Source: Cliona cf. orientalis
Taxonomy: Eukaryota; Porifera; Demospongiae; Clionaida; Clionaidae
Length of the DNA: 64,000 bases
Assembly (NCBI GenBank): GCA_963930775.1
Contig: OZ005696.1
Location: forward strand, 5,332,001 to 5,396,000
Reading direction: 5' to 3'
Part shown: positions 686 through 43,311 of the stretch, piece after piece
Layout: every line of letters begins with the position of its first letter
How positions within the stretch are numbered: position 1 is the stretch's first letter
Translations under genes and position numbers: made by a program
The notes under the pieces: model-generated
Database searches by the model: none
The model's input: only the letters and a program-made list of their open reading frames with translations
Told to the model about the DNA's origin: nothing

Positions 686-3600
686 TTATATACAATATTT
701 TGTTTTAATTTGTGAGGCAATATCTTCATAGCCCTCAATCTCTAGAGCTTCGACCAGTTGTGACCAGGATGGTGGAGGACAGACACGTGTCAACCAGGTT
801 CTCAACATGTCACGAAGACAAGCTTTACTATCACCAGGATTGTTTGACTTTATTTGCCTCAATTGTCCATCTTCTACATCCAATTGGATACCAATATTCT
901 CCCACTCAGTAGAAACTGTGTTCTTAAGCACTCTCAGAATATTCTTTAGACTCGGCTTTTCTGATTCATCTGACTGCTGATGTGAATAATCTACAATAAT
1001 GGCAAGGAAACAAATCATAAGAGTATAGCTATAATAATTATTATGCAGCAACTTTAATAATACAAAGGTATAATAACCTCATATTCAACTGGTTCCTAAA
1101 ATTAATACCATAATATTATGGCGGGTAATTTTTGTGGGTGCTAATTTTCAAAATAGGCCCTCAAAATTAATTTCATGGTTTTAAACTTCGTGACAGCAAC
1201 CAGTCCAGGGGCGTGGCACAGCACAAGTGATGATGTAATCGATACATGTACTTGATCTATAGCTCGCTCGCAATCTTCTTTATTACTAAGCCATACTTGC
1301 AGAAACTTGGACAAATATAATATTATAGCACGAGATAGAAGAATATTATTGTCAAAGACACTATCAGCTGGATAATAGTGGCTACTGTTGCTTGTTAACA
1401 CTGGGAAGTGTTGGCCGTGCGCTACCACGTCATGCCCGTCATCATAGACTCAAATAATAAAATTTTCGTGGGTGGGAAAATTTCGTGACTATCAAGTCAA
1501 CCATGAAAATAACGAAAATTACCCACTATACAGTACTTGAAAGCATTAAGTATCCACACTGTCTTTACACTGTACAGAAAGTATGGATTTATAGTTTAAT
1601 TTTGTAGCCTCATCCAAATTGCTTGGCCATTACGAGCTATGATAACACTACTAATGCTATACCTATAATTAACTGTACGGGGGCCTATGGATTATTTTCA
1701 CGTTGGAAAATATAGGGAATGCATGTTGTACACACACACGTACATGTAGCAGCAGCATGCTTGGACCTCACATACATGTACCTACCTGCATGCAGCTTGG
1801 GTGGCTCAACTGGGATAATTTCAATGGTAAGATCAACACCACGTACTAACTATTATAGCAAACTATCTGTAGGGATAAGTGATGTCCATATTTGCGTCCC
1901 ACCAGGGGATGGTCATCCCATCAGGAATAGCTTGCATTTCTCATAATGATCCATACATAAGGAATGCTGCAAGAGTTGCTAGACCCTTCCCCTCCACTAA
2001 CTAATACTCTGGAGAGGTGACAAGGGTCTAGCTGGCCAGACTAGGGATTTATCTGCTTCATTACAGCTATAGATAATATTGAAAGAGGTACCTGGAGAAT
2101 CACTGGAAGTGTCAGAAATTTTCAACTTCTCTCCTTCACTTGAGTTTGAATGTGAAAATTGTCGGAGGGAGTTAGTGGCACTCTCTGCAATTAACACAGT
2201 AGCAATCACGGATTTATCCGGGGGGGGGGGGGGGGGGGTGGACAGGGGAAACTTTCCCCCTAAAACTTTGACTTAGATTAATAAATATCACAACAAATCA
2301 ACAATTTATTATTATTATCAAACTACAGGTGACATTATAGTATTTTCAAGGTATTTATCATGTGACTTTTGTTGAAAAGCCTTCGTTCAAAACTTTTGGT
2401 ACCATTTGGTACGAGCTCATGATGGGCAGAGACAGTGATGGCTTCTTTTCAACAAAACTAGTTAGTATGTCTAGTGATACATGTAGTTCCTCTAACATGA
2501 CTAACTTATCACACTAATCCTCAGAACTGTCTTAGCTTTCCTCATGCATGGCATAATATGGCACGGCACTTGCGCACCGTTAGTGTACGTGTACCGTAAT
2601 TCATGTTAATTTCGTTTGCAAAATTTCTGTGCTAGAACTTTTTGTGTTATAATATTTTCGTCAAATGCATACCATCTATTTGCTATAGTATACATTAGTA
2701 CTGGTAAACTAAAAAAAATTTCGTCATTTTGCATAAACGAATTTTTTATGAATTACGGTACTAAAATGTCAAGAATACAACAATTGGGTGCAGCAGGGAG
2801 CAAGCGAAGTGAGTCCCTGCTATATTATACTGTACTTGCTCTAATTATCCAAATGGCCAAACAAACAAATAATAATATCATTGTTCTGTTCGGCATTAAA
2901 TGGAAAGTAAATCAATGGCTTGTTCAAGTGTAAATAGAACAGGTTCGATAAAAATAATTGAGAAAGCACTAGCGATGAAGAAATAGCAGTTGATATCCAG
3001 CAATACATTTATCGTTGTTAGCTATATATAATTTGTCACTGTGCTCTCTGAGCGATAGCAAAAATGATTGTCAGTGTGAGTCTGTGTTACCATTCCACTC
3101 TTAGACATTGTCCAAGATGTGCCTTCGATGAATATGGAAGAACTGTTTGGGGTCCTGCCATGCCGTGCCGTGTGGCCGTTTGGTTAATCGATTAGAACTT
3201 AAAATTCAAAGATGTTCGATGAATTAGGAAGGAAATAAAATACTTAACTTGCTGTTTGGGCTATTAAAAATGTTCAAATGATTAGAGCGAGTATGTTATA
3301 GGGATATACCATGTACCAAATTACATAACCAGATAATATGAACTAGCAGCATATAATATTATGTACAATGTTATGTACGTGTACGTATGTACTGCATGAC
3401 TTAGTCCATTTCACCTCAGTGCTGCACAATGGTCTTGTATACCTGTAATGATGCACTAATGATGCACAATAATATTGCTACCAGACTCCTATAATATGGA
3501 CAATTGTACACTGTGCCACTACTCTTTCCAATGGTGCATGGCCACAGGCCAGAGTGCAAGTATAATTAACCCTTGCCACAAAGTGTAGGCGGAGGGTTAC

Positions 3601-6600
3601 TGCAATCGTTTGGCGATTTTTGTCCGTCCGTCTGTCCGTCTGTCCTGTGTTAAGTGGTAGGGGTCGTCTGACATTAAAGGTATGCCAGGCATCAAGGAAG
3701 AGTGGTCACGTTAAGTCCTGCCCAGTGGTGTATATAGTAGTGTGCACAGCTGCAGTCTGTGTTTACATGGCACCCACCTCAGCTATGTGACTGATTGCCA
3801 CACTGCCTTGCTGGTCAGTCCTCAATGCAGTGACAGTGAAAATAGGCAGTAGCTCTTAAGTGCATAACTAATTCAGTTCAGTTCACGGAGGCTTTCAGTT
3901 TATATAGTGACATAGCCAGGCAACTCCTAGATCATTCACTGACTCTGGTACCAGACCCTGTTTAGGTGCAGGGTGTAGCTAGTTCAATACTCCTCAGTAG
4001 GCATACACATGAGACATGCTATAGATCTACAAGTGCATGAGTCATGCATGCATGTAGCGGTGAAGGTTCTGCACTCCTGTGCATTCATTGCAACCGCAGA
4101 TATCCCTGGCATAGGGGGTATACCGCTATTTAAATGAATAGGACTACTATCAGCAAATCTAGTGGCTACAAATGTGTGTGTATATAATGATATTATAATA
4201 TGCACCTTGAACTGGTGGTTTGATGGTGAACATATTGTAGGGCTCCTTTGCTCCTATTAGCTGGACATGGTACTCAAGAGCAGGAATTGGTTTAGCTTCT
4301 GTGGAGACCGGCTTAAACTCAGCATAAAGCTGGCATCTTGGTATCCTCCGACCTGGCTGGTAGCTGTCTATATGCTTCTTTGTAACCTACGTGTAATAAC
4401 ATCAAATTACATGTATTATACTTATATTAATGACTGATCACTCTGATCAAAATTACACTTGTACGCTGTATATATATAGCCGAAATTCTTCACTGTGCAC
4501 CACGCCCAGGTGCCTTTGCAGTAAAAGAAATAACTAGAGCACTGAAGTGCAGAACGCTCAGCAAATGTAGCATATTAAATGTTTGACAGTAAAACGTTAA
4601 TGATGGTTGATATAGTGCAAGATTATAAATCAGGATTGGTGGTAAATGTACTAGTAATTTTGTGATAAAGATAATATTTTGGCTGTTCTACAATAATTGT
4701 GCTGGTGCAGTGTGTGGCTCTGAAATATTGTTACCATTGAGAGCTATATAGCTGACACTATAATTTCAAAGAACAATACTGGCTAGGTTGCTAGGCTGCA
4801 GACAGCTACTGTCATCTAAAGATATGGCACATACAACCAAGCTTGGCCTCATGCACTATAAAAGTTATAATAGGATGGTGACTACAACTCACTCAATTCT
4901 AAGATGAGACCATAGCTATGATCTGGTCTCGAATCCAGGTGTACATGTAATCAGGATGAATGGTGAGAATTTATTAGACACTGCCACGTGGCAACTACAG
5001 ACTGCGCAATTCTGTTTGCCTTATAGCCTAGCGCCTATGAACTGTATCCTGTAGCCATATTATATATTATACGGTTATAGACTTTACCATAAATAGTATA
5101 CGGAGGGGACTTACCGATTACAGTATAGGGAACTAAAAAACGGCTGACTTCGCTGTGCTAAAAACGAAAAATAAGCTATAACTCGTGAGAGAAAGCTTTT
5201 TTAGCAAAATCCCTTAATTGAAAATCTTTGGAGTTTGGCACAAACGTGGCTGGTATATTCATTTTGTTGCATAAATGTACTACGCAGGCAGTACACTGGT
5301 AACAAACAGAATAAACAAGTACTGTATTTCTTCTAAAAATTCGGCATGAAAATAATAATATTGCTTTACCTTCGCCGAATTTTTAGAGGTTAATATTCAA
5401 CATTCTGTCTGTGCGCCCGTTTATAGCATATACGCATGACGACCTTTGCCGAAAAATTAGAGACTATATTCAATCATTTGGTAAAGGGTACCGAATAATT
5501 AGAAGGGCCTAATTTTTAGAAGAAATACGGTAGACAGACTACTGAAACCCTCGTGTCCATGCGTGCTGAGCGTTAATGAATACACTGAGTGCAGAACCCT
5601 CACCACTACTGCATGCATGACTCATGCGCATGTATACAGCGTGGCTCACAGTGTATGCTTATTCAATATCAAGAGTATTAAACTACATACTCGACACTTA
5701 AACAGGGTTCTGGTATTATTCCGAGTGAAGCAAGGTCTCTACTCGGGTTCGAGAGTCACATAGTATGGCTTCCGGACATATCTATTGCGTGCATCTAAAT
5801 TTTCTTTTTTATTCTCTTCAGCAACTGAGGCCACGTTACCACGTGTTACTGAGTCAAAAGTTGTGGGCTCTCCCAAGATGGTCATGCAAGGCCTACAAAC
5901 TGTATGGTTTGGCTGGACTGTGCTTACCGGGTAAATCAATGTTCACACGGCCAAAAATGATCGCACCTTCTTGGCCCAAAGTTATTCGTCCTGTCGCTGA
6001 TGGTAAAGATCTTGCTACCCGTGGCCTGTCAATTTGCATATTCTTGGCTTTACTATGATAAACTGAACGCCTCTGCATGCGACATACCAAAACTTAATTA
6101 TGCACTTAAGAGCCACTGCATGTTTACACTATCGCTGTATTCACAATCGACCAGCAAAGCACAGAAGGGCAATCAGTGATGTAGTTGAGGTGCCATGTAA
6201 ACACAGACTGGCATGCAGCTGCACACTACTACACCACTGGGCAGGACTACATTACCACTATTCCTTTATGCTGAGTACACCTCGAATGTGCACTTTCTCT
6301 CAGACAACCCTTACCATTTAACACAGGAGGGTTGCAACAGACGGATGAACGGAATTCGCCAAACGATTGCAGTAAGCCTACATAATTATATGCTTTGTGG
6401 CGAGGGAGTAATGTGGTAAAGGTTGCCATATCTTTTAATTATCAATACCAGATAAAATTTTACCAATGGCGAAATCAGTAAAATTTTCTCCTATTGAAAA
6501 TTTTGGCTTTAATTAGATGTTTATGGCATCATATCAAATCAGGGCAGAGGTTGCCCTCAAATGAGAGCAACCACAGACTCTGGTAAATAGGTAATGTGAT

Positions 6601-9600
6601 CATTTACATGCAATGGATTATACAGAAAATAAGCTCCCGTTATGTAGTGTTTACGCATTGGTAGATATAAACTAGGGGTGTTATCATTTGTACAATAATT
6701 GTTATTATGCTTGACTAGATCTATACTTCACCATGACCCAAGTGTAACTTAGTAAGTATTGGTTCAAAACTTATTGACATGTCTATTATTTATAAACACA
6801 TGCATTCCTGACTTAATCCTGAATGTGAGCAAATACATGTACAAAATTATGTATGCTTAACAAGTATTTTGACGTCACAATCCTGGGATGATGTGGCTAC
6901 TATACATTACATGCTCAGAAAAATCTAAACAGTGTCCTGCCTATACATACAATATGGAAGTGGAGTGAACTTTAAACCTACTATTGCGTAGGTCAAACCT
7001 CTCACTACATGTCAACAGCAGCTGCTTGAATTTACCACTAAGAAGTGTGCAATGGCGATGTTCTCACTCTGCTCAAACATTAAATCTACCGGACTATTGA
7101 CAGGCATCACAAAGAAAATATCTCGCCTCTCGTTTCACTTGAGGCTCGGTGGTATATGGTCTGCAAAACGCACGGCGAGAATGCATCCATGGCCATAGGT
7201 AAGTGTCTCTATGGCCTAAGGCCATCCCCTTCTTTGTGCACATGGCCCTATAGTTCTAAGCAATCCTGAGTCTTGTAGTACGGACTTTCTCTCCGCCCAC
7301 GCGCCGGCGCTGCATATTCATAGCAACTGAGATGCGTATCAGAGACAAATAGCGATCGTGATTTACCATTAGTAACCATGGTATATAATATTACAAGTAT
7401 AATACATAATACATGTATATATTATAATAATATTATAGAATTGGCATATGTAGTACACATACTTACCACAGGGGCGATCAGAGGTACAAGCCTCCATCCC
7501 TCTTTCAAATCGATGCCTCTAAATGGAATATCAAGTCTAATTTGATCGGTTTCAAATTCTACTGGCTGGTCAGGACCAGACAGAACTCGCTGCTGTTGAT
7601 GGTAGGTTTTTTCCACATCCTATTAGTAGCGAAATCATATTAATCATTGTATTATTATAGGTCACTTCTGGATAACTCACAGTGAGATGTGCTTCAATGT
7701 TCCATGTCACCACCAAGTGAATATCACAATTGGAGATACTTGGATTCAGGTAGAATAACCTCGCAATATACTCCCTGTCTTGTGGTCCTTCCTGAGTGAT
7801 TGCCAAACCCGAGAAGCGTTGCAGTTTAATGAGACCATAGGATGAGCTACTACTAAAGACTGGATTCAGATATTTGAAAGTGTATGGGAGCTTCTCTTGG
7901 TTGCACACTGCTCTCACAAAGCTCAGCTTGGATACAGCCTCTGCTTTGGCACAATGTTGGATCTCCAGAGATAGTAACTTTGTAAATTTGACCATGGGAT
8001 CACATTGAAGCCAGAATACACCACTGACCAGATGGGACTCCTCAGGGTACTCATACTGGCCAGCTAGAGAGGCGAGGATCTTGACGGTGCATTGCTCCAC
8101 ACCTTTAGGAAGGCTGCCTTTTGGAATGTTCAACCTTAGGCCGTATCCTTCCCAATAAAAGCTCTGTTGGTCGTTGGTGACCACTATGGTGGTTTTTCCA
8201 CAAACCTCAACTCCAGGAAGTCCTGTACATGTAACACAACAGTCATAATGATGAAATGCTTCACATTACCATAAAGTCAGGTTACATGCTTATTAAGCGC
8301 ATATTTTTAACAAGCGCATACTTCCTTCCTGTTGTTAAGTACCGTAGAATCCCGCAAATACGCCCCCCCTCGCACATAAGCCCCCCCCTACAATTTTAGC
8401 ACAAGTTCTTGCATATGTATTTTTGCCTCTCGTATAAGCCCCACCCCTCCCTGACCATAAAATGTAAACATAAGCCGATAAAAACAGTAGCTACAACTAG
8501 CAAACTAGCTATTTGTGCCATAGTATGCCTTACTTTGGATTTTCTTGAGTATTGCCCATCAAATAGCCAGAGAAAGTACAGAGATTGCGTGCCCACGTGG
8601 TATTCGATTGTCGGTAATGGAAATGTAAGGATCCCGCGTATAAGCCCCGCCTCACTTTTGCCCAATGCTAGCATGCACAAAGGGGGGATGTAATCGCGGG
8701 ATTCTGCAGTATTGTCTAACAAGTGCATGTGCCCAATAACGATGACAGTAACATTCACAGAGATCAAGAGGCTCTGCATGGCTAGAATTGTATACCAACC
8801 TATTTTTGGAGAGCCAGCTGCATGAGACTGGCTATACTCATCACTGTGGTGTTCCATAATGGTCCACCAAATATTTTCAATGTCAGCTAGTTTGGATCCA
8901 ACTGCCAAATATACTGCAATATTTCCAGCTATACATTACACCTCCCCAGAGGTGCAATGGGGTAAAAAATTGCTGGGAGCTAGTCTCAAAAATGACGTCT
9001 AGCCCTGCTCAAAACCATCATCCGAGATGATACAGCTTCTAGCAGCATAACTAATTATGTGACCTTATCGCACCTCCTCTGACACCTCCCTCTAGACTAC
9101 ATGTACATGTGTATTTTAGTGGGCATATATGTGAATAAGTATAACATAAGAATTATTATGTATAATATTTTATGTGTATCTAGAATTCAAGTATACTAAC
9201 CTAGAGAGATGTCATTATGATCAGTAGAATCGTGAGGCTTTCCTCTTTCATTTATGTGTACACCTGTAGCATTATGTCCAGTAGCACCATCTGTAGCATT
9301 TTGCATAGGCACAGTAGCCCTGCTTGCTGTGGTTTGTCCAGTAGCATTATCGGCAGAATCTTGCCCAGTAGCACTGTCTGTAAACAGTTAACAGAATTTT
9401 TTGTACTCAGTAGCAGTCAAAGCATTAATCTGGCAACTAGCCCCTCCACTTTACTTACAAGAAAGAGAGGAGGGGATAAGAGAGAGGTGGGAATACCTCA
9501 CCAGACCATCAGTATTATTATAACGTACTTGCAACGTATTTCTTATTAGCTAGTATTCATAATACAAGTGCAAAATCCAGTTAGCGAGAAATCTTCTAGG

Positions 9601-11271
9601 GGTCTAAGCTTCCTTATTTTCATTGATAATGGATGAATTGCGAAAATGAATCCTGTATCCACGAAAATTTGATGCTATACAGTAGCCTCATTCCAATTTT
9701 TCAATGCTGCATACTAAAACGCACTGGGGAGGGCCTGCTATCTAAACCGTGTCCGTTACGTACTGCATAGACATAGGAGATTTACATGTACCAGCAAGTA
9801 GGGTACATCAACGATCACCAAGATTTCAAGCTCTCTTATAGTCAATAATCAACAGGTATGATTCAAATGCCTGTTGTTGAGCATAGTAGGATCATTTTAC
9901 AATTGAGTTGAATTTGAACGGCATTCATATGCATATAGTGATTTAGCTAGAATGGTAGCTGCATTTTGTGGTTCTTTTTAGCCACATATAAATTTTCTCG
10001 TTTTTCAATGTGCAACAATGAAAGCAGGGAGGGCCTGGGGATGAGGCTAATGTTAACGTATGTGTTTACAGGCTGTATCCCATAACTTGATATGAAAATT
10101 ATATCTCCCACCCTCCAGTCCAGAAAAAAACCTTACCTAGTTTAGTCTTAGTTGTTCGAGGTGCTGTCTCATCTGCATCCTGAGCATTCATTTCCAATAC
10201 ATACTTTTCGTTGAGGTCGTAATTTTGTACAGTTAATGTTGCCACTTGTGATTGTAAGTGTTCTACGTCACTTTTAAGCAAATTAATTTTTTCTGTCATT
10301 GATTCGCTGTTCTTCTTATCTGCTTCAATGTATCTCAGCATCTCCAGTCGGTTGGCAAAGGAGGCAGGAAACTGCATCACCATCTCTGCCAGTCGCTCCT
10401 TAATCTCGCTTGCATGAGCCCTTGTCTGAGGGTCGTTATGAATGCATTTAAGAATCAGGTCCATTAGAGGATGATCATTTCCAATGGCTCGAAGGAACAC
10501 CTCACGTCGCTCAGCTTCCGATATTGCAATTAATTTATCACCCTCAACATGAATTTGTCCAATCTGTGGTGCTGGCCATTTACCACTAAACATGTGGATC
10601 ATTATAACACCATAAGAAAATTCATCGATACAAGTATCGTAGTTTGGCTTGTCCACCATTGCTTCTGGAGGCATGAAACTATCATTACCAGGTCTGTTTG
10701 TCATTCCGCTACTTGTTTGAACATTCATTAGTATCTTGGCTTTGCCTAAGTCGGATATTTTTGCCGTCATATCGGGGGTGAGGAGGACATTGTGGGAATT
10801 GAGGTTTCGGTGAATGATGGGAGGGATTTGGCTGTGGAGGTAACACAAGCCAAGAGCCACGTCGTGAAGGATAGTGTAGCTGATCTCTTTTGGAAGAATA
10901 CCATATTGCTCAATGCAGGAGGTGAGCTTGATAGGGAGAAACTCCATGACCAGGATGGGCGCTGGCACTTCTACTTGCGGCTGGAAGTAGAATCCCAAGA
11001 AGTGGACAATATTTGGGTGGCGTATTTGACTGAGAAAGTCACACTCTTCAACAAACCGTCTAACCATGTCTTTACTCTTGCTTGATGGATCTTTTAGTAG
11101 CCAGTCATGAACCTTCTTTCCAGCACATTTTAGTCCATTGTAGTCAAGTTCCAACACAGAAGTGAAGGAGCCACCACCTAGCAATTTCTCACGACCAGCT
11201 TCTTTAACGATTTTAATCTTCTGCAGCGTGAACTGTTGCAGGGTACGAGTGTAGTTGTCCGTCGCTGTCAT
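686..11271 (-). CDS. Pseudokinase-ZU5-UPA-like-Death domain protein, 7 exons, 864 aa
   Basis: Exons in transcript order: 10137-11271, 9201-9377, 8800-8901, 7681-8222, 7467-7619, 4206-4386, 686-990. All have GT-AG borders and phases add to 865 codons with stop. Residues 1-300 form a TKL-like kinase domain: glycine loop GGGSF near 32-36, Lys 52/53, DLG 174-176 and MPPEAM near 200. The catalytic HRD is HRN at 154-156, which suggests a pseudokinase. A coiled coil (about 315-360) and a low-complexity linker with repeated NATG follow. Residues 472-652 are a ZU5 domain (GLRLNIPKGSLPKGV), 653-763 match the segment that follows ZU5 in UNC5/PIDD/ankyrin-type proteins (UPA-like), and the last 100 are a Death domain (WENIGIQL...PPPSWSQLVEAL). 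Probable cytosolic adaptor in death or immune signalling. The start ATG matches the aligned start of the divergent paralogue. Domain calls are firm; exons 2 and 3 rest on phase and splice sites. Confidence 0.85.
1122..1526. repeat. MITE-like element, family with GGGTAATTTT ends
   Basis: The left end GGGTAATTTTTGTGGGTG and right end (reverse complement GGGTAATTTTCGTTATTTTC) form terminal inverted repeats. The interior, including GATGTAATCGATACATGT and ACTGGGAAGTGTTGGC, recurs in a second copy at about 39857-40165 inside the third lipase gene. It lies in the last intron of the kinase/Death gene and has no coding capacity. Confidence 0.7.
3574..4105 (+). repeat. Left arm of a large inverted repeat flanking exon 6 of the kinase/Death gene
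   Basis: This segment pairs in inverted orientation with 5555-6412. Matching blocks include TTACTGCAATCGTTTGGCGA (about 3597-3616 against 6361-6380), CTGTGTTTACATGGCACC, CTCTTAAGTGCATAA, CCCTGTTTA and GGTTCTGCACTC. GTCCGTC-type simple repeats sit just inside the outer end. It may be the left copy of a MITE inserted twice in opposite orientation, or a long terminal inverted repeat. Confidence 0.65.
5320..5535. repeat. MITE with about 25-bp terminal inverted repeats
   Basis: The element begins TACTGTATTTCTTCTAAAAA and ends in the near-perfect reverse complement (TTTTTAGAAGAAATACGGTA). A second internal inverted pair has CCGAATTTTTAGAGG-like sequence. Length about 216 bp, noncoding, in intron 5 of the kinase/Death gene. 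Confidence 0.75.
5555..6412 (-). repeat. Right arm of the large inverted repeat
   Basis: Reverse complement of the 3574-4105 arm, with about 300 extra bases at 5720-6058 that the left arm lacks. Open frames of 60-97 codons across the extra piece resemble no protein I know and overlap on both strands, so they are not called. With the left arm it brackets exon 6 (4206-4386) and the MITE at 5320-5535. Confidence 0.6.
8341..8710. repeat. MITE with TAGAATCCCGC termini
   Basis: The left end ACCGTAGAATCCCGC and right end GCGGGATTCTGCAGT are inverted repeats. Inside, paired CATAAGCCCC / ATAAGCCCCGCC motifs repeat. It occupies most of the 577-bp intron 3 of the kinase/Death gene (8223-8799) and creates a spurious minus-strand frame continuous with exon 3. 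Confidence 0.75.
9682..10049. repeat. MITE-like element, GTAGCCTCATYCC termini
   Basis: The left end TAGCCTCATTCC and right end GGGATGAGGCTA are inverted, with GGGAGGGCCTG motifs near both ends. Located in intron 1 of the kinase/Death gene. Termini resemble those of the 56-bp hairpin at 17793-17848 and of 38466-38855. Confidence 0.55.
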
Positions 11272-11406
11272 TTTATAGATCTATACTCATGGACGGTGGT
11301 CGAAACGTCGAATCCAAAATTTGGGACTTGGCACGTGCAGATCAATCAGTGGGAGGGCGCTACCTCGAGGGAGGAGGGGATTCAATTGATTAACCGACTT
11401 GTCCTC
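11272..11406. promoter_or_regulatory. 135-bp bidirectional promoter region between two kinase paralogues
   Basis: Only 135 bp separate the ATG codons of the minus-strand pseudokinase gene (11271) and the plus-strand kinase-kelch gene (11407). Both 5' UTRs and any core promoter must lie here or in unseen upstream exons. I see no clear TATA box. Paralogues head-to-head suggest an inverted duplication sharing regulation; this is inference. Confidence 0.55.
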
Positions 11407-14400
11407 ATGGCTGCTTTTACAAACTTTAATCCCCACAAGCTGACTGGCGTCAGAGTGACAAATCGAGAACTTGGACATGGCTCCTATGCCACTGTACTGG
11501 AACTGGAATACATGGGACTGAAATGTGCTGGCAAGAAGATCCATGAACTGCTTCAACAATTGGATGATTCCAGGTATATCATACATAGATTTGAGGAAGA
11601 GTGTCGTCTACTCAGTCAAGTACGTCACCCAAACATTGTTCAATTTCTGGGAGTCCATTTCCAACAAGGAGTACAAGTTCCAATCCTGGTCATGGAATTT
11701 CTCCCAACCAACCTCACCTCCTGCATTGAAGAGTACGGTATTCTCCCAAGGGAGATCAGCTACTCCATCCTTCATGACGTGGCTCTGGGTTTATGCTACC
11801 TTCACAGTCAAACTCCTCCCATCATTCACCGAGATCTCTCTTCCAACAATGTCCTCCTCACCCCCAACATGACAGCCAAGATCTCGGATCTGGGTGTGGC
11901 CAGGCTCATTGGCAATCTACAGGTCAACAACATGACCCAGACCCCTGGCACACGTGCCTTCATGCCACCAGAGGTGATGGTAGCCAGCCCTAAATATGAC
12001 ACAAGCGTTGATGAATTCTCCTATGGCATAATGATGATCCACATGTTCAGCGGTAGATGGCCAGAGGCACAGGTTGGACAGGTACGTACCGAGGCTGGTA
12101 GGCTGATTCCAGTCTCAGAAGCTGAACGACGTGAGGTTTTCCTTCGAGCCATTGGAGATGATCATCCTCTGATGGATCTCATTCTTAGGTCCATTAAAAA
12201 TGATCCTAGATGTAGAGCTCATGCTACTGAGATTGTGGAGCGAATGGCGGAGTTAATTTTGCTGTATCCTGCCTTTTCCGCTAACCGATTGGAACAAATT
12301 ACGTTGAGAGATGAAGTACAAAAGAAAGACCAAGAGATGAAGAAAAAGGATAAAGCAATACAAGAACTTCAAGCTGAACTTACGTTATTGAGAACGATAA
12401 GTAGTGCTACTGGCCCATCCAAGGTAAGATATATGGGCACAAAAACTATTAGGGTGATGCAAATTATTGATAGGGCAAGACAGCATAATTAATACTCTGA
12501 GTAGAGGGATGATTGGGTCGCCCCACTATTAGAGATCTACCTACATGTATGCTTGTGATGAACCCGTAACTATTCTTGTATGTATAATAATATTGTAGAG
12601 TAGTAGTGCATGGCTTAGCTGACCATGTGGGGTGGGTGTGGAAGGAGGATGTGCCCCCTCCCATCGAAGCTTTTGGCATTAATTTTATACATAGCTCAAC
12701 ATCTATCAACAATCTATTGATGTTCATCTGCATAGCTAAGTAGGCCCAGCCTTATGAAGAACCATGAACTCTCAGTATATTGCTCAAAAGTGCAGGGATT
12801 AATACAGAGGGAGCGGGATTCCCCTCCCCTGAAAATTGCCACATATTTATTTATAGCCAAAAATTTTGGCAGATCAACCAGCCAACCACAAAATTAAAAT
12901 CTACCAATCATTCCTATACAATGTACTTTGCTCATGTAAAGGCAATTGTGCGTTACAAAGTAAATTTGTACTATGTGTGGTCTTTGGGCTCCACGAACGA
13001 TGTACATGTACTGCATGTCACTTGCTTGAATCACTGCTGCTGCGTACTGATCCCTCATGGTTTGTTGCATAATATCAATGGAAGCATAATGTGTAGCAAG
13101 ACACTCTCCTCAATCTGAAATCTTGAGCACGTGCGTGCAGGTACCAAATTCTGTCAGTATTTTTTATTCTCGCTGGTTGTGGTGAATCGGCCCGATTTTC
13201 CAGCTCTACGGTTATAGAGTGACATTTGTGTATGTGGTCTCAGAAGCCACCAGAAACAGTCTCAAAGTTGTAAATTTCCTGGGGAGCATGCCCAAAGACC
13301 CCCTATTTACATGTAGGTATGCTGGAAGTTCTCCCTCTACAATATTATTAATTCCTAAAGTGGGAGGGGGGGCACCTGAAGCCCATGGGTGCCTCCCTAA
13401 CCGTTCCCCCTCCCACTTGCATACTGAATTTCAATTTTCTAGTAAGTAGCTACATGTACATGTATTACGCATGTTGGCCCAAATTATTAATTAAGTGCCC
13501 ATGGGTGCTTATCCGAGACATTGGTACATGTACATGCATGCTTTTGGAAATCGATTGATAACCTTGAAAAACTTGACCACATGCCCAGTAGCTGCATAAT
13601 GGTTCATGTGGTAAAAGGTCGTCAATGTAGTGCGTACACAGTGTGCATAGTCCATGCCACATCGCTTCAATCGCAGAGATGGAATCTGAGACCAACTCTC
13701 GACATCGACACTGACAATTTTCAATCACAGGAGATGAACTCAACAGAGCCTTTCTGAGATTTGAAAATCGGTATAATATATGTAGAGTACATGCATCTGA
13801 CGCATGTATCCAGCGAATACATTACAAGCTAAGTGCTACTTTCTCTGATAAGTACCGCTGGCCGAACTTCATGCGTTTTCTTGGCTGACGTAATCCCGTG
13901 GATAAATAAAGCTAGCCTTGTGCTACATGTGCATATAGCACGCACGCTGTGTGCCATGCCGCGACCAACCAGATGTTCAGAAGCTGTATGGCACTCCATG
14001 GAGGCCCTGAATTTTCTGGCAATTACCTCATAGATTACGTCATCATTATCTAATAACCGCAGAAAAGTAAATTGCTACTGCGCATATAAACTTAGACTAC
14101 ATCCCTCATCCCTCATGAAAAGTATTCACTACACCTACTGTATTCTGCCATTATCGACCTTGGACACATTGACAAACTGCGCATGCTCTGTATTGCATAA
14201 TATTAGGGTGTGCAGAGTGAGCCGGTTTACCCGGACATGACCTCTACCAAGTGCCTGCCATGTGCTAGACTGAATAGGGAAATCCCCTAGTGTACAAGCT
14301 CGCCAAAGAAAGCGAACTGAGAGAATCACCATATCTCATCGATAATCCATGATCTCTTCTACACTAAGTTCGAATTCTGGATCCCAATAACCTTTCACGC

Positions 14401-15558
14401 TACATGTGGCTAAACAATTTGAAATGGTCTTAATTTCATCATAATTTCGTCATAATTTCATCATAACTACCTCATCGGTTGGCTGAATTGTTTTTTGTTG
14501 ATTGGGACTCGGGATGTAACTAATGACCGTAACTACAGTAGGCAAGGTCAAGTTTTCTATCCAAAAGATATGCATTACACATCTTTATTTACACTATACA
14601 GGCTGATATCACCTGGAAAGAATGTGCTGAACTACCGATCAGATTCATTGACATAAAGGCTACAGTCATCAACGGCAAGGTCTACTGCAGAATAGGAAAT
14701 AGTCACGGACATAATTTATATATTGTCCACTGCTATGATCCATCACAAGACAAGTGGACTACCCTACCACCGCTTCCTGTCAGATGGTTTGGTCTTGGTC
14801 AGGTCAATGGCAAGCTAGTAGCTGTTGGGGGAAAGAAGAGGAATAAGCTGGTATCTGTTCAAGTAATGATGAGGAGCAAAGGTGATGCGACTAGCGATAT
14901 TTATGTATACGAGCAGTCACGAGAGTGGAAGCAGACCATTCCTCCCATGCCAACAGCGAGATATTTCCCATGTGTCTTGAGCCTGCAGTCAGCACTAATA
15001 GTTGCAGGTGGAAACACACCATCACTTACGGCTTTAGTTGAGATATTCAAACTAGACACATCACAGTGGTACAGGACTGACCCACTACCATCAGCTTGCC
15101 GTGATGTGTCACTAGTTGCTATCGGTAACTCATGCTATGCACTAGGAGGATACAAGACCCCATCATCTCTCAATCAAGCACTCCATGCCTCAGTTGATGA
15201 ACTCCTTTACAATGCTGTACCAGCCAATCAGATCACCCACAGGTTGAGCTGTGATACTCAGTCAGCTTGGAAGGCACTACCCAATACCTCAACGTATCGA
15301 CCAGCTGCAGCCACGTTAGCGGGCAATCTTCTTGCTGTAGGAGGAGAGGAATCATCCAGAGGAGGAGCGGACATGAAGGAGATCTACATGTATTCACCCT
15401 CAACTAACTCCTGGATCCACATCAGTGACCTACCTTCTCCACGATCTATCACCACAATTGCTATTTTATCATCAACAGAGATTCTTGTGGTTGGAGGTTG
15501 GGACAGTGGCAGAGCGAACGCTGTATACAAAGGAATCCTACATCTAACACCAACATAG
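11407..15558 (+). CDS. Kinase-kelch fusion protein, 2 exons, 657 aa
   Basis: Exon 1 is 11407-12423 and exon 2 is 14602-15558, joined in phase 0 (CCAAG|GTAAGA donor, TATACAG acceptor). Residues 18-290 are a TKL-like kinase: loop GHGSYATV at 23-30, Lys 43/44, intact HRDLSSNN at 141-148, DLG 161-163, MPPEVM. This copy should be catalytic, unlike its divergent neighbour. A short charged coiled coil (KKDQEMKKKDKAIQELQAEL) leads into a kelch propeller from about residue 340. Blades show paired Gly (VAVGGKK, IVAGGN, YALGGYK, LAVGGEE, LVVGGWD) and spaced Trp (KWTTLPPLP, SWIHISDLP). Likely role: a signalling kinase whose propeller binds a partner. The frame remains open upstream of 11407 through non-ATG codons, but alignment to the paralogue favours ATG 11407. 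Confidence 0.88.
12424..14601 (+). other. Intron 1 of the kinase-kelch gene
   Basis: A 2178-bp intron with GTAAGA donor and TATACAG acceptor. Besides the MITE at 13535-14085 it carries a GTGCCCCCTCCC-type inverted motif near 12620-12665 (also at 32295-32335), a GGGAGGGGGGGCACC hairpin near 13360-13425, and tandem ATAATTTCRTC units at about 14440-14470. No coding exon was found in it. Confidence 0.6.
13535..14085 (+). repeat. CCCAGTAGC-family MITE copy in the kinase-kelch intron
   Basis: Starts near CTTGACCACATGCCCAGTAG and ends AAAGTAAATTGCTACTG. The interior (GTATCCAGCGAATACATTAC, GATAAATAAAGCTAGCCTTG) is shared with 49395-49975 in reversed arrangement of ends, and its first half with 35225-35460. 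Noncoding. Confidence 0.65.
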
Positions 15559-19100: not shown

Positions 19101-20966
19101 ATCGCCAGATCTGGAGATTTAGGCATCTGAGTGAGCCAAAGTACAGCATATCCGTCCATATCGTTGAAAACTGGCTTCATTATGCTTCAAATTGCATGGC
19201 AAGGCCCAAAAGCATCGCAAATACTTCAACTTCACCTATGGACACCACCCTCTCAGACCATGTGCTTTCTGCTCATGCACTCATGCGTGCTGCAGCACGT
19301 GGGGTACCGGTATAAGCTTTATAGAGCTCTATAGTATGTAGTTTCCACAAGTGTCTTTCCACTATGGTTTCAACTGTTTGTAATAAAGGAAGGAATGAAG
19401 CACAATTGTGCAAAACGCTCAGTGCAGTTGACATAGTGATCATGATAAAGCCAGAGAATGAACTAGAGAATAACAACCACAATGGAAAATGTGTTGTCAT
19501 AATTATAATATTATTATTATGACAACATATTATTATCAGCTCTGTAAGGCCTAGCTACAGCATGGCCGGCAACCATTATCAGCATGATGTAGCTATATAA
19601 CAATGTCAGTGTACTAGAATGTATATTTTATCAATACGTAACCAATATCAGTAAGACCTGGGCTAGTGTAGTAAGACTGTGCATATATAATACCTACACA
19701 TATTTTATACCTCCCCCACTGACCTTTGGCTAGCACCTTTGGATATGCTCATGGCAGACTTATAGCAGACAGGATATAGGTATTGAAATTTTGTTATTCA
19801 CCTGGTCAGTAGATTAAAATCTGTCTCCCCACACACACCTTCTAGAACCGCATTCTTGCATGTGGCTTAAAAATAGTAAGATAACTACACCTTCTACTGC
19901 CTATGGTGCAATACCTGCTCAGCATGCAAGAGGATAACTGAGAAGGTCTAGAGGATTTAGTGTGCTAATTAGTGACAAGTCAGTCACCTTGTATGAGCTA
20001 ACGCTGACTAATTCTGTTGAAAAGAAGCCATCGCTGTCCATCGGGAGCCCGTCAGGAAGCAGGTCAAGCAGTGGCCATCTGCACAATCATGATACCAAAC
20101 TTTTGAATGAACGGTTTTCAGCGAAAGCCATGCCAAATGATAAAATCTTAAATGCATCATTGAAAGAACCCCACCTTCTTTTCAATTAACATACAAATCA
20201 AGGTATTTCATGTATACAGAGACACACACTCACACAGACGAAATGGCTAACCTTCCAGGGCATTGCATGCACCGAGGGTTAAATAGCTACATGTATACCA
20301 GAAGACACTTTTGAAGAGGTGATACTTGTGCATGAGTATGTATAGCATGCCGATACGAAACTTGACAGAGGTCACACTTACTCTTCCCCTGATTACTGGG
20401 AGTCCATTGATGCCTCCATAGCCTGGCATCATGCAACTGGCAACAGCTGCCTGTAATTGAACATGAAAACAACAACAAAGCAATAATATTAGTAGCTATG
20501 TTACAGTAGAAGAATGTCTCACATTGATTAGCTCTTTGCGAGTCGTAAAATCTGTTAGTAGCCAATTCTTAGGCAATCCAAAACCATCAAACACGCTCAA
20601 TGAAATGTGAACACGATTTCTACACAACCTGTGCGCATCTTGGGGAAGGATTGCCTCAAGGAAGGCTCTCAATCGTGAGAGGATGTCGAACGATGGACTC
20701 GCAGCACCCAAAATGAAGTATTTTCTTGAAAGTTTAAAATTCTCCATTGTCCACTTGTAGATCATCAAGGGGTTGCACTTGCACGCGTAAAAAACTGCAG
20801 CAAATGCCCCCGCAGATGCTCCATACACCTGGTCAAACTCGTCCAGCACATTGTGGTCTGTCAAACACTTGCATACTCCAACGTGATAGACACCGAGCCA
20901 AGCACAGCCACCAAATGAAATCTGTAGTCCAGCTGGCTTTAGAGTTGCATCTTTGCATGATGTCAT
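16103..20966 (-). CDS. ATGL-like patatin phospholipase, copy 1, 4 exons, 334 aa
   Basis: Exons: 20523-20966, 20382-20450, 17196-17466, 16103-16323; lengths 444, 69, 271 and 221 close as 335 codons with stop. Residues 15-170 carry the patatin signature: glycine-rich oxyanion loop FGGCAWLGVYHVG, nucleophile elbow GASAG with Ser 51, and the second dyad residue in FDGG (Asp 175). The stretch after it (SVTPFSGESSICP, NLSRLK, QGYSDSLRFF) matches the PNPLA2 (ATGL)/PNPLA1-5 clade closely. It probably hydrolyses triacylglycerol or phospholipid at lipid droplets or membranes. At 334 aa it lacks the long hydrophobic C-terminus of vertebrate ATGL and ends in an acidic Ser-rich tail (IIPGDSGYFSRTDS). Dyad residues intact. 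Confidence 0.9.
16343..16725. repeat. MITE with CAGGGTTTCATCCAG ends
   Basis: Left end CAGGGTTTCATCCAG and right end CTGGATGAAACCCTG are perfect 15-bp inverted repeats. The interior has long G and C runs and a GA-rich tract that yields spurious low-complexity frames on both strands. It sits in intron 3 of lipase copy 1. A related end (GGTTGGATAAAACCCTGG) occurs near 34550. Confidence 0.8.
17793..17848. repeat. 56-bp hairpin MITE with 9-bp target-site duplication
   Basis: TAGCTTCGTACCCAGGCC at the left end pairs with GGCCTGGGAACGAGGCTA at the right. The flanks are identical CAGCTATTG (17784-17792 and 17849-17857), a clear target-site duplication. Paralogous introns lack the insertion (near 18268, 35550 and 39805), giving empty-site evidence. 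Confidence 0.8.
18121..18200. repeat. 80-bp MITE with CAGGGGCGGAGAA ends
   Basis: CAGGGGCGGAGAA at the left pairs with TTCTCCGCCCTTG at the right. The interior contains GGGGGGCTTCAGCACCCCCC. Termini resemble hAT-type MITE ends starting CAGGGGCGGA; the family assignment is tentative. Confidence 0.7.
19960..20277. repeat. Dispersed repeat ending in CCGAGGGTTAA
   Basis: This segment aligns with 27380-27699: GTTGAAAAGAAGCCAT, AGGAAG, TTTTCAG.GAAAGCCATGC, AACCC, then a CACACACA/GACA tract, then GC...CCGAGGGTTAA. A third relative ends at 31855. It is noncoding and of MITE type. Confidence 0.55.
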
Positions 20967-21552
20967 AATGAAATGATCGATGGGTATAGTAGCTATTTGT
21001 GCACAACTCTCACTTTTATCTCTACTGGAAGCAACGTTTTAATATCAATTATTGCATGCTCTACAAGAATGCAATACGTGAATAGTCATGTGCATTGGCG
21101 AGGTTTTAAATTTGGTGAATTGGCGACTTTGCTTCCATAATAATATATCTAGATAATCATTGCAATACAGCTACATGCAGGAACCTACAAGTATGATATT
21201 TCTATGCTAATCTATCATGTGCCTTCTGGTAGTGCACCTAGTCTAGTATAATTTTATAGCATGTAGCATGTGTGTATATCATCACTGTTGTAATAATATG
21301 CGTCCTGTATACACAAACTAGCTAGCTACCTATGGATAATAGGAAGCGAAACCTTAACAAGGCTGCATGCACTCAAACTGCATTAATTTTATGTCAAGTA
21401 AAACTAGTGTAACATGCAGCTACATAACTGGAGGGGAGGATATTATAATATACTATGATATGTATAGCAAGATTCCCGTGGATGTGTACAAAAAAAGTAG
21501 TATCAATAAAATTAGCTAAAGATCTAGATGGGTGCATGCACATAAACTCACA

Positions 21553-24233: not shown

Positions 24234-27200
24234 TTATGTGGAAAAAACAATCTTTAATTCACCAGCAAGTTCAGATAAGTCAGCTTCTTCCAGAACCTTG
24301 ATTAGGGTGTTCCAAGTGGTAGGAGTTCGACCTTTGCCCTCAAGCCATTCGATAAAGACAGTTCGACATGCTTTGACAGTTTGTTGGTGGTAGTCCTCTC
24401 TTATGCGACTAATATCATGGCTCTCAAAGTATAATCTGGTAGCAACTGCCTCCCACTTGGCTGCTGCTTGCTTTATCAACCTCACAGTCTTCCCATTACC
24501 CTCAATGAGATCAAGATGGTGGAGCTTAGGTAGGGAAGAACTGGTAGGAAAATCTAAAGAAAGGAGATGATATTAAATAAAATAACACATTGGTTATTGT
24601 AGCTGGAACCTGAGATACTGCTAGCTGAATCTGTTGAAGTAGCTTGGGTTGGAGAGCTTGCTTTGGGTGGTAAACATATATTCTGTAGAAAAACAGACCA
24701 GTAATATGTTATAGTATTATTATACTAGCTATTACTGTAACACACAATAATTAAATTAGATAATAATAGTGACCTACCTCATCAAACCACACCATGTGTC
24801 CATAAGGGAGATCATAGTAAACTTTTCTTGTCAGCTGACAGGTCATAGTGCAAGGCTCTCCTCTGGGGGAAAAGTTGATGGTGGCAGAGTGTGACTGGTC
24901 GTGTGGAGGTGGCTCAGGGCAGGCAAAGGCAAGGGAATGAGACGCTCTCTGGGTATAGTGGAGTGTTTCAATGACGCTGTGAATGCTGTTTCTAATTTCA
25001 CGTCGTACATCACAGCATACCTGGCCAAGAGGCACTTTTCGATTGCGATCAGTAGTTATGCTCAGAGCGATTTTGATGTACGTTGGAGAAAGTGAAAATT
25101 GAAATGAGTCATACGGTCCAATGGAGAGGCATATCTGATCTCGATAGATTCTGTCTTCCTTCAGCTTGCAGTCATGCTGTAAGATTTTCTGTTGCTTGAG
25201 CAGATTGACAAGAAGTGCTCCAAACATCCCTTTTGGGCAGAAGCCACTCCCAAACACTATCCTGATAGAAGGGATAGCTTCCTCCGACTGTGAGTCTGGA
25301 GGAAGCTCAGCGTGAGACAGAGCAACAGGAGCAAAATACTTGACAACAGTGCCATTCTCCTCAATTGGAGCAATGACGTCAAGGTGCTTCAGTAAAATAG
25401 CCAATTTGTCACCATGCAGGGTATCAGAATCCGTGGTTATGAATTCATTGAATACCTCAGAAGTGAAAAGACCCAATTTCAAAAATTTCTCATGCTTGAG
25501 GGGACTGATGTTATCAAACGTGAAAGTTTGAATAATCAGCTCAGTCACCTTATCAAAGATGTACTGTGGCTCCTTGATGATCACATCCCGGAGCTCAGGA
25601 ACTTCCTGAAAGTGGCGTACGATTCCAACATTGTGATGAAGGAACCAGAGAGCATCATCCAGTTCTTTGCGTTTCTTAATACCACATTCTTTCGCTATTT
25701 TCATGCAATCCTCGATGCTTAGCACTCTATCTGGTAGGTGGCGTAATGTAACTGCAAACAACATCCACGTGTGCGGTGTTCGAATTTTGTAATCGTCAGA
25801 CTGCAAACCGAGTCGTTCAACAGCATCCCTCACTTGTTGAATATCCTTGTCATCGTCAGAAGTATTGTCGAGAGCAAATACCATTTGCTTTTCGGAGCAA
25901 AAAATGATCATTTCTTCCTTGTATGCATCGGTGCTCTTGACAACTTTTTGTAGCTCTTGGTCAATCTTTTGGAGATCTTGCTCTGATCTTAGTTTATCCT
26001 TGTGTGTGGCAATGAAAAGCACTTTGGGAGTGACTGGTTTCCCATCTTCTAGCTTAATGTAGCTCCTAGTTGATGCTATACTGGCCAAAGAGGAAAGCAG
26101 GATCTCTTTTGTTGTGCAACTGGCTTCAAATGGAATAATGGATCTCCCATCGGGATGCTGATACTCAACTGGATATTTTGTGTTTAAGTCTTTGTGTAAA
26201 GGGAATGTGAGGAAGTAGATTGAGGGACCAGAAACAAGGGCGGGCAAAGACTCTTGGAATTCTGGCTGTCCACCAACATCGGAGATATAGAGTGTACACT
26301 GTAAACCTTGTATACGACGTTTGACAATAGCAGACTGCTGCAGAGTAGAATTCAGTATTTGCGTCGGATTGACTGAGGCTAAGGCTATCTCTTGTTGCGA
26401 ATAAGACACAGTCTCAATTGTGCTTGATTTTTGTGCAAGTCTCCTTACTTTACGTACCATCTTCTGCAGTTTGTTTTGAGGTGGACAAGTAGCTCCAGAC
26501 TTCATTATCTTAGTCACCATTTTACTGTTTCCTGAACTATCACAGTCATGAGCAAAATGATCGGTGACATCTTCAACAACTATAGCTGCTTCCTCGCTGA
26601 GGTCAGCTACTTCATTCCATGTGGAGCGGGATAAAAGCTGCACTGTGGTTTTCTCTATGTCCTCTATTTCGATACGGGTCACCTCCTCGGCCACTCCAGT
26701 GCTGGGCGTCTCTAGTGCTGGCTTTTGTCCTGTCAAGCGCTTTTTCGTGGACGTCTTTCCTGATCGTGGAAGTCCAAAAAATATTCCCTGCATCATGATT
26801 TGATTGACAGCTCCCTTTTCTCTGATGGCTCGACGACAAGCTTCCACTTTTTCATGAATAGGTATCGTGTATGCTGAAAATTAATGAGCAACAGTAAATA
26901 AATCCAGCTACTGGGAATTCCTGATACTTGATGCTATTTAAATGCATTGTCAGGGCCAGGCAATCTATATAATATATGGCAGGCAGATATTATCGGTGTG
27001 TAAATCACCGAGAGAAATAGGAGGGCAGAAGAATGAATCTTTCAGTACGCCTAAGTACTCAACACAGAAAGCTTCAAAATTACTGTCAGAGGATCTCAAG
27101 TGCACTCTCTGGGAATAAAAAAAGTTCCTGGGGGGCATGCCCACATGTGAGTTATTCAAAAACATTGTATGTAATGACAATTATTATAATGAGAGGTGAT

Positions 27201-30200
27201 ATGACATCATGGCGATGTGGCATAAATGATACACATGCCATACAAAAATTAAAACAGTCCAAATATCAGTTTATGGCTCGCTGGCAATGGTGCAGTGCAT
27301 GCACATGGACACATTGCATATAGTTACATAATACACATCAGTATCATGCATGTGTGCCATCTCATTCCTACATGAAAGTCAAGTTAGAAGCTAATCTGGC
27401 AGTGTGCTATGATTAATGGTGAGCCAGTTATCTTGTTCAAGTTGAAAAGAAGCCATTGTTGTCTCATTTGTCCATCAAATGCTCACCAGGAAGAGAGGAA
27501 GGTGGCGGTGACCAGCAAATGATGCCAGAACTCTTGAAAGAAGCATTTTCAGGGAAAGCCATGCGACAAAAATCTTGAAAACACCGTAAGAACCCTATGA
27601 TATCTCTTTTTCAATGCATAGGAGGTAGGCAGCAGATTTCATAGTAACAGACACAGACAAACACAATGACTACCACAATCCTACAGCACATGCGCCGAGG
27701 GTTAATAATCATCAGTACACAACCACATACCAGAAACATGCTTCCAATATAGCTGCTTTAGCACATGGTGTTCAGTGAGTCGGCCTCCCCAATTCCTGTA
27801 GAGAGCCCAGGCTACCAGCTTCCAACTTGGAGCTGGATGATTCTGCAGCCATTCTTCCAGCATGGACTCTTTCCCTGTCATCATATCACGCCTGGACTGA
27901 AGCCACACGCCTAGCCCCTCCCAGTCAGCTATACCTTGCAAAGCTGAGAGTAGATGAGGTACTGTCAGTGTTGAATCTGGAAATTACAATTATGAATAAA
28001 AATGTAGTAAATACATAGCTATACTTACAAGTAATACATGTACTAGCAACATTTCAAAACGAACACGTGACCTTGACAACTATAACCAACTGATGAGACC
28101 ATTACTGCTAGCTATATTATGCAGCATGATCAGTATCGACAAAAGTGGGTAGCTACAGTACTTAGTCTCAGACTAGTGAATTCAAGGCTCATATATTATA
28201 GTTACACACATCTGATTCACTAATTTTAATATTATACGTAGAAGTTTTTGCCAGGAGAATAGTTTTGGCAAGTTTACCACCTGCTCTCATTGATAAAAAT
28301 TTTATCACGTAAATTTTTTTAAAGAAATCGATTGCATGAGGATATGGCAACCTTTACTGCTTTGGTGAAAAGTTTCCACAAACTTTTTCTGCAATACAAA
28401 AGCATCTGGAATTGGCGAAATTATCCAGTGAAAATTTGCGTGTATTATACCACTATAATATCCAGAGGAGGTTGCCATGATCAAATTATTCTGATTATTG
28501 GGGCAATACACAATCCTATAGTCAACCCATCGAGTCAGCAAAAATAAATAATTATTATGGCATGCGATGATAATCAAGAATGTAGTTGGCCAAAATTTTG
28601 ACCAACATCATCTGATTGCTAGCCTGGTAACAACATGATTGTATAAGTACATTTCATCTCATCCCAGCACATAGCTTACCTTCCTCCCTTTTTGTGTATC
28701 TTTTTGCTGCCTGTAGTGCTCTTTCCTCGCAGCAAGAGTATAAGGATCCAGCTATAACTTCCCAGGAGATCCCCGGGATGAACTGCACTATGTATGCTGA
28801 CAGTGACACAAGCTGTCGTGACTGATGGTGCCCTCTGATCTCAAACTCCTTAGATGATGGCACATCAAGGTGCCCACACAGACTGAGACCACCTCCTGGA
28901 GAGAGGTCATACCAGTTCCTCTCCAACAAGCTAAGGACATCAGCTACATACTCCACAGTGAGGTTGGGATCTGCATTGCAAAAGTATGGCCCTGGCTATA
29001 TACTCAGTTATGATATTTTTTATCAACAACTGTGGTGATCTTTGTACTGTGTGTAAAAATTAATCCTTTTAATTCTGGAAGCAATTATAAGTATGGTTTA
29101 TTTGATGATTTATTATGGGAATACCTAATACACTCATAAAGTATTAATTATCGCAAGCCATAATATCAGATTCTACAATTATTAATCATCAGTCTAATCT
29201 CATACCACATGGCGGAATGATAGCTAAGAATGTCTGCATACCTGTCACAGATTCAGAGTAATCCTCTATTCGCTCAGCCACTTGTTTCTCCATTCCATGA
29301 AGAGCCCTGATGACACACCTCCAGCTGGATCTAGGATGTAGGGTGAGGGTGTACAGTATCAGCGCCTTCAGTCGCTCTGAGTCATTGGAATGTCGTTTCC
29401 TTATTTCATCCATTGTTTCCTCTGGCACATATAACCAATATCCAATGGTATTCCATCTTTCCTCTATTCCTCTCAGAGCGACCATGATATTCTCGACAGT
29501 GAAAGCTGCAAAGGTAACATAGCTAGTCCATTAACATTGCTGTATGCATGCAATTTGGGGGGAGCTGAAGCGAGCCCCACACAAGTGATGTCAATCGAGA
29601 TTTGCCATTTATATATGTTATTCCGTATATACCTGTTGTCTATTTCAGCGATAATAATTATGCAATATTTCATTCTCGGTTATGCATGTGCATGCATTTA
29701 ATATGACACACAACATGAGAGTCTCCAAGCCAGTGCCAAGTGCAAGAGAGTGAGCAGATACTTAGATAGAGGGAACATGCTCATCAAGCAGCTAAAAAGG
29801 AAGAATGCTAGACCAAGAAACACACAAACAGATCAGAAAAGGAGAGCTGCGGAGACACAAGAACAGACTCAGACTCAGAGAGGCAAGGCTACAGAGGAAA
29901 TGTTCTAGGCAGGCAGAGTGAAACATCTTGAGTGCAGAGGATCCATGTGAGACTCCTAATTCAAGGCCTTAAAGGCTCAGAAACAATGACTGTTGCAGCA
30001 AAACAATTGTGGCTGAACTATGCTACATAGCTAACCTTCATATATTCCAAATTATCTGTATACTGTCAATGAAATACTCTGAATCATTTGTACTTGTGTG
30101 GGGTTCATGGAGGTTCACCCCATTGATGCTTAATAAAACATTGTCTCTAGTAGGTATAGTGGTACGTCTGTCCATCCATCATGGAAGGTCAGCGGAAGTG

Positions 30201-42677: not shown

Positions 42678-43279
42678 ATGGCTTTAGTGAAAATGGATAG
42701 AGATAGACTATACGAGCCAGCTCGGCGTGGCTACACCATCATGTCCAGGGAAGACCAAAAGAATGGGAAGAAGTCCACCTTGAAGGGACTGGAGATACAC
42801 GGATACATCAAGAACCTCAGCTTAGAGCTATGGACCTTCACACACATAACGTCACTGCTACTCAGTGATAACAACCTACAGGTGGGTTAGTGATAGTGAT
42901 GAATGATATCCCATACTCCCCCGTCTCGCCACCCCCCCTCCCCCCCCCCCCCCCCCCCACACACACACACGAGTAAGCCTCCACATACTTTTGCACACAC
43001 ACACACACACACACACACACTGCTGATTGCAACCTGTTGAGTGTATCAATTAAGGCTTTGTTTATGACTGCTGTGCTAGTACTTGGTTCAGAGATAACAT
43101 TGTTAGGAGTGGTTTGGCATTGTCCTGCTTTCACTGATGCCTGTTGTTGCATGCAAAAGAATACCATAATTGTATCACAGGGATGAAATCAGTTACCACA
43201 TTCCCATTTCCCTTCACACACTCCTAATCCTACAACGTACCCATAATGTACTCACCCTCCTGTATCATTACGCCACTCA

Positions 43280-43311
<32 letters not shown>

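Follow-up and report, generated by a model that had tools for sequence, protein, structure and literature searches.

Kinases of the TKL type occur together with a Death domain in one protein in the RIPK1/IRAK family, the IRAK proteins carrying the Death domain first. Among proteins with a ZU5 domain, the UNC5 netrin receptors have a ZU5-UPA-Death cytoplasmic part (PDB 3g5b) and PIDD1 has the order LRR-ZU5-ZU5-UPA-Death, with the positions of its LRR, ZU5 and Death regions tabulated in the available text of PMC9573974. A 64,000-nucleotide stretch of the genome of the sponge Cliona cf. orientalis (contig OZ005696.1, positions 5,332,001 to 5,396,000 of the forward strand; hereafter the window, numbered from its first nucleotide) contains a predicted minus-strand gene, here called gene A (11271-686), whose product appears to combine parts of these systems. 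Along the protein, the predicted order is a TKL-like kinase domain without the catalytic Asp, a coiled-coil-like stretch, a low-complexity linker, ZU5, a region in the position of UPA (the UPA-position region), and Death. The interpretation considered probable is that gene A encodes a cytosolic 861-residue kinase-like scaffold with an UNC5/PIDD-like ZU5-Death tail, built by exon shuffling.

The resemblances are partial in each case. Like UNC5, the gene A protein has a ZU5 domain, about 190 further residues, a linker and a Death domain, with ZU5 similarity exceeding that of shuffled sequences; unlike UNC5, it has a kinase-like domain in front, no transmembrane segment was seen, and a UPA can be assigned only by position. 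As in PIDD1, there is no membrane segment and ZU5 precedes Death, but the kinase-like domain stands in the place of the LRRs, the ZU5 is single, and the HFS cleavage motif is missing. Where the RIPK and IRAK proteins pair kinase and Death directly, gene A has ZU5 between the two. The catalytic loop is nearly that of TNNI3K (HRDLNSHN, against HRNLNSHN in gene A), and TNNI3K and CTR1 are the top PDB kinase matches among those listed, though both differ from gene A in its HRN and its ZU5-Death tail. In amphioxus, the predicted protein LOC118406448 (XP_035662392.1) has LRRs between residues 55 and 315, ZU5 at 448-546 and a kinase at 956-1222 (PMC9573974); it resembles gene A in having ZU5 predicted together with a kinase, there a RIPK-like one, and differs in its LRRs, its C-terminal kinase and, in the available text, the lack of a listed Death domain. 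On that source, the combination would not be wholly unprecedented.

No animal protein with kinase, ZU5 and Death was found described in the open literature searched, a result that makes no claim of absence, with most subscription journals and protein databases outside the search. The original prediction, which had named no well-studied animal protein with both a kinase and such a tail, agrees with this for the full set of domains and is qualified by the amphioxus protein. NACHT-ZU5 proteins are reported from cnidarians as well as sponges, and 128 Death genes from one sponge, in the available texts of PMC12909245 and PMC8260672, and domain shuffling is described for amphioxus innate immunity in that of PMC2575513. 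Close relatives were sought in two scans of prokaryote genome contigs (zero and one confirmed loci) and three of viral contigs (zero in each), collections that do not include animal genomes, so that the lack of relatives carries little weight; the sole confirmed locus, from a bacterial genome record, encodes a kinase with 26% identity and was set aside. If the interpretation is correct, a kinase-like scaffold would be tied directly to a ZU5-Death tail that is found in known animals on receptors or PIDD, and the locus would be a compact example of exon-shuffled Death-domain signalling proteins and of a kinase that may have turned pseudokinase after duplication.

Exon structure of gene A and the single-gene question

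Gene A was rebuilt on the minus strand from splice sites, giving a sequence-level model of window 11271-686 with seven exons, all joined in frame into 861 residues, and a stop codon closing exon 7. The seven in-frame exons and the outer coordinates of the original prediction were thereby recovered, at 861 residues rather than 864. Exon 1 (10137-11271) holds the start codon, the TKL-like kinase domain (residues 28-292, HRN for HRD) and then the coiled-coil-like stretch (about 314-356), and exon 2 (9201-9377) encodes a linker rich in ATG(Q/H)/NAT. Exon 3 (7681-8222) carries the ZU5 domain (Pfam match at 462-532) and the beginning of the UPA-position region, which extends through exon 4 (7467-7619, preceded by an intron of 61 base pairs, bp) and exon 5 (4206-4386), both candidate UPA by position. 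Exon 6 (2092-2184) encodes a Ser-rich linker and is the weakest of the model, and exon 7 (686-990) holds the Death domain (residues 784-857) and the stop codon. Because an in-frame stop lies three codons ahead of the start codon, exon 1 is likely to be the first coding exon; a further upstream exon, spliced at the AG found in this three-codon interval, would also be compatible with the sequence. Within intron 2, the stretch 8335-8710 contains the motif 'TAAGCCCC' several times (by eye) and an 18-base tandem pair at 8353-8387, and is perhaps a small mobile element.

All six introns have GT-AG borders. With the animal donor consensus MAG|GTRAGT as the standard (maximum 9), all six donors score 7, a level met by 28 of the 642 GTs in the region, those six included. 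The modelled frame is free of internal stops in all seven exons. Codon scores were computed twice, the first time with the introns of gene A itself serving as both background and null (a circular comparison), and the second time with hand-chosen unannotated stretches from elsewhere in the window, possibly partly coding. On the independent background the modelled frame outscores the other two sense frames in all seven exons; on the own-intron background it does so in six, the exception being exon 5, at 0.090 for the modelled frame and 0.102 for one that contains three stops. A draw-based null covered exons 2, 4, 5, 6 and 7, exons 1 and 3 carrying the kinase and ZU5 domains. Among 4000 non-coding draws for each, pieces equally long, open and as high-scoring numbered 30 for exon 2, zero for exon 4, 32 for exon 5, 98 for exon 6 and zero for exon 7.

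Kinase, ZU5 and Death in one gene model are supported as far as sequence can tell, and the odds of one gene over two were put at about three to one. The alternative that survives best, improbable though not negligible, is that of two genes: a kinase gene made of exon 1 alone, which reads 12 residues into intron 1 before it stops, and a ZU5-Death gene of its own, starting at the exon 2 Met or from an unseen exon. The exon 1 frame does stay open for those 12 residues beyond the splice site, and exon 2 does contain a Met, but the exon 1 donor is good (7/9), the intron phases agree (phase 1 to phase 1 at the exon 1/exon 2 junction), and the exon 2 codon score is positive on either side of its sole Met, at 0.169 bits per codon over the 23 codons before it and 0.049 over the 35 after it (halves scored without a null). 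Introns 1 and 2 are also free of AATAAA and ATTAAA, as were 180 of 2000 shuffles, hence weak support for one gene, and the kinase exon of the sister gene described below is likewise best read as spliced onto a tail. As to where a separate tail gene might begin, the first in-frame Met of exon 3 is at residue 76 of 180 or later and the open stretch upstream is also Met-free; the ZU5 tail therefore requires a coding exon ahead of it.

The ZU5-Death tail

The Death domain of the tail has a Pfam match at 784-857 (expectation value, E, 4.3e-7; 30.4 bits against a cut-off of 22.6). The tail has 11 weak PDB matches, with THO complex subunit 1 first (E 0.005) and PIDD Death domains second and third (E 0.013 and 0.02). 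The ZU5 domain is matched by Pfam at 462-532 with 21.4 bits, for a cut-off of 21, with the region from ZU5 to UPA scanned alone. Compared with the UNC5B ZU5, this part gives z-scores of 4.6 in glocal and 5.6 in local alignment, with zero and one of 1000 shuffles as high. AlphaFold2 was run on exon 3 alone, without relatives, and the top Foldseek match of the resulting model is the ZU5 of ZO-1 (PDB 2kxs; probability 1.00, E 0.014, 14% identity). ZU5 is accordingly graded on two scales: as a fold it is reasonably supported, whereas its standing as a sequence family is borderline. The whole ZU5-plus-UPA stretch is weakly above shuffles in comparison with UNC5B (z 2.2 glocal, 40/1000 as high; z 3.0 local, 13/1000), a similarity carried by ZU5. 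With NCBIfam, the matches of exon 1 are all to bacterial kinase models and fall far short of the cut-offs, and the tail has zero matches.

A number of results weigh against the proposed architecture. In the Pfam scan of the whole joined protein, ZU5 reached 19.4 bits, under the cut-off of 21. The exon 3 model has a mean predicted local distance difference test score (pLDDT) of 53.5, though the first five ten-residue blocks are at 62 to 83, and none of its 127 Foldseek matches reaches E 0.001. The UPA-position region has no Pfam UPA match (E up to 10, with filters dropping most matches above about 0.1) and zero phmmer matches against the PDB, and alignment of the 193 residues after ZU5 with the UPA region of UNC5B scores no higher than that of shuffled sequences (z -0.7 and -0.05). 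Among the splice signals, the acceptors are ordinary, with scores of 9-12 that are not distinctive because 222 of the 690 AGs in the region score at least 9. Exon 6 is the least certain exon. The last three introns (4-6) are long, at 3080, 2021 and 1101 bp, and contain eight polyadenylation-like hexamers, which would allow the tail to have its end or its beginning at another place. The exon 3 model is also unreliable in the UPA-position region, and a UPA identity for the middle of the tail would be a guess from position and length. Of the predicted kinase and ZU5/UPA-like/Death composition, the kinase and Death parts were therefore borne out by Pfam and ZU5 came out at the cut-off; the UPA-like part retains position and length.

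The kinase-like domain and its sister gene

In the Pfam scan of the 861-residue protein, Pkinase matches at 28-292 with E 1.9e-33 and PK_Tyr_Ser-Thr with E 1.6e-30. When the kinase domain is compared with PDB sequences, the best 60 of 2213 matches begin with TNNI3K (E 4e-23) and CTR1 (E 7.5e-21), followed by WNK chains, with Roco4, plant receptor kinases, RIPK4, TAK1, RIPK2 and B-Raf further down; the RIPK2 and RIPK4 chains thus rank below TNNI3K, CTR1 and WNK. These matches fit the TKL group loosely. In a stretch chosen by eye after the kinase domain (residues 314-356), hydrophobic residues occupy 9 of the 12 a/d heptad positions in the best of seven registers, and the wider 296-378 has 58% hydrophobic a/d positions in its best register, which together would make a coiled coil likely.

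The catalytic loop reads HRNLNSHN, with HRN at residues 154-156 as had been predicted, and the Asn156 codon is AAC (10804-10806, minus strand). The canonical catalytic Asp is therefore lost in gene A, while the sister gene still has HRD. At the remaining catalytic positions that were examined, the two genes have identical residues (Lys52, Glu75/76, Asn161, Asp174 of DLG, PPE at 201-203 and Asp216). The same Asp-to-Asn change is named in PSKH2 and likened to HER3 and JAK2 in the available text of PMC7586955, and HRN entries are also among the kinases tabulated in that of PMC2754085. By its sequence the gene A kinase is likely to be catalytically inactive, and the earlier suggestion that the domain may be a scaffold fares well insofar as this is a single-residue pseudokinase, with the reservation that HRN kinases such as HER3 can retain some catalysis (PMC7586955). 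A rival reading takes gene A as one gene whose kinase is active despite HRN, a Death-domain kinase in the manner of RIPK/IRAK. This is doubtful: the remaining examined positions are the same as in the sister and some catalysis was found in HER3 and JAK2 with the same change, but the same source states that the change usually abolishes catalysis (PMC7586955), and the sister gene retained HRD.

The sister, gene B, is a predicted model on the plus strand that lies head to head with gene A. It begins at 11407, and the two start codons are 135 bp apart, the gap (11272-11406) being a candidate shared promoter. Its first exon (11407-12423) encodes a sister kinase domain with HRD intact, 59% identical to that of gene A (199/335 aligned positions), and joins in frame, over a 2178-bp intron, with a Kelch-repeat exon (14602-15558, plus strand) that has no in-frame Met upstream of or inside the first Kelch match. 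The nonsynonymous (dN) and synonymous (dS) divergences between the two kinases are 0.225 and 1.45 by the method of Nei and Gojobori (NG86), and 0.238/1.38 and 0.224/0.99 by two other methods, over 279 codons. Because dN is far below dS, both kinases appear on average to have been kept by selection, which would argue against long-standing decay; these values, however, average both sister lineages and neither date the loss of the Asp nor show that the gene A kinase has been constrained since, a further point to be set against the proposed history.

The phases in which the kinase exons end differ, being 1 in gene A and 0 in gene B, which fits tails joined separately. That one kinase exon stands before two different tails suggests exon shuffling and favours a real fusion in gene A. 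It is conceivable, if speculative, that the two genes form a unit, in which a shared promoter would drive a dead ZU5-Death kinase and a live Kelch kinase that pair through both their kinase and their coiled-coil parts, so that A switches B on and routes the signal to Death-domain assemblies; HER3 and STRAD are known cases of a dead kinase partner that activates a live one. An artefact of annotation or assembly, or a gene in decay, is a very unlikely source of the apparent fusion: the weakness of exon 6 speaks for it, but a window without any N, open exons throughout, positive codon scores and the purifying pattern in the kinase speak against it.

Localisation, proposed mechanism and other features of the window

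By a hydropathy scan alone, the gene A protein has no transmembrane segment, the highest 19-residue hydropathy being 1.5, and because there is no hydrophobic segment it is probably cytosolic. A membrane receptor, one of the roles first proposed for the protein, was rejected on the same ground, and the kinase match already begins at residue 28. No LRR match was found in the 861 residues (Pfam, E up to 1). HFS is the autocleavage motif of PIDD, and self-cleavage of the PIDD type was rejected as unlikely on account of its absence from the protein.

For the scaffold reading of gene A we infer a single transcript, loss of kinase activity, dimerisation, autoinhibition, a shared promoter and an order of events in which the kinase exon was duplicated, with the two copies facing each other over 135 bp, and one copy acquired a ZU5/Death tail and the other Kelch repeats. 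The kinase-like part would probably bind a partner or ATP, with pairing through the coiled coil. In UNC5, the ZU5 part masks the Death domain until release, and by analogy the ZU5 part of gene A would keep its Death domain shut until a signal released it. The freed Death domain would then recruit other Death-domain proteins.

Other Death-related sequences occur in the window. On the minus strand at 24234-26880, a long open reading frame (ORF) with COR-A (E 3.6e-11) and a sub-threshold Roc match is closely followed downstream by an ORF with Death (E 8.6e-8), a region that is a possible Roc-COR-Death gene; its Death domain is 21.5% identical over 79 residues to that of gene A. Also on the minus strand, the ORFs at 28654-28995 and 29189-29530 are 25% identical over 96 residues (pairwise BLASTP E 4.3e-5), the latter with a sub-threshold Death match (E 0.18) and the former with none. 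Scans of the whole window with Rfam (gathering scores) and for tRNAs gave zero matches. Three minus-strand patatin-like phospholipase ORFs (20496-21038, 35918-36463 and 40866-41360) are 79-86% mutually identical and, judged by that identity, are a local repeat of one gene. On the plus strand, an LRR ORF (43170-43547) is followed by an endonuclease/exonuclease/phosphatase ORF (46071-46844), an order also found in CCR4/CNOT6-type deadenylases.

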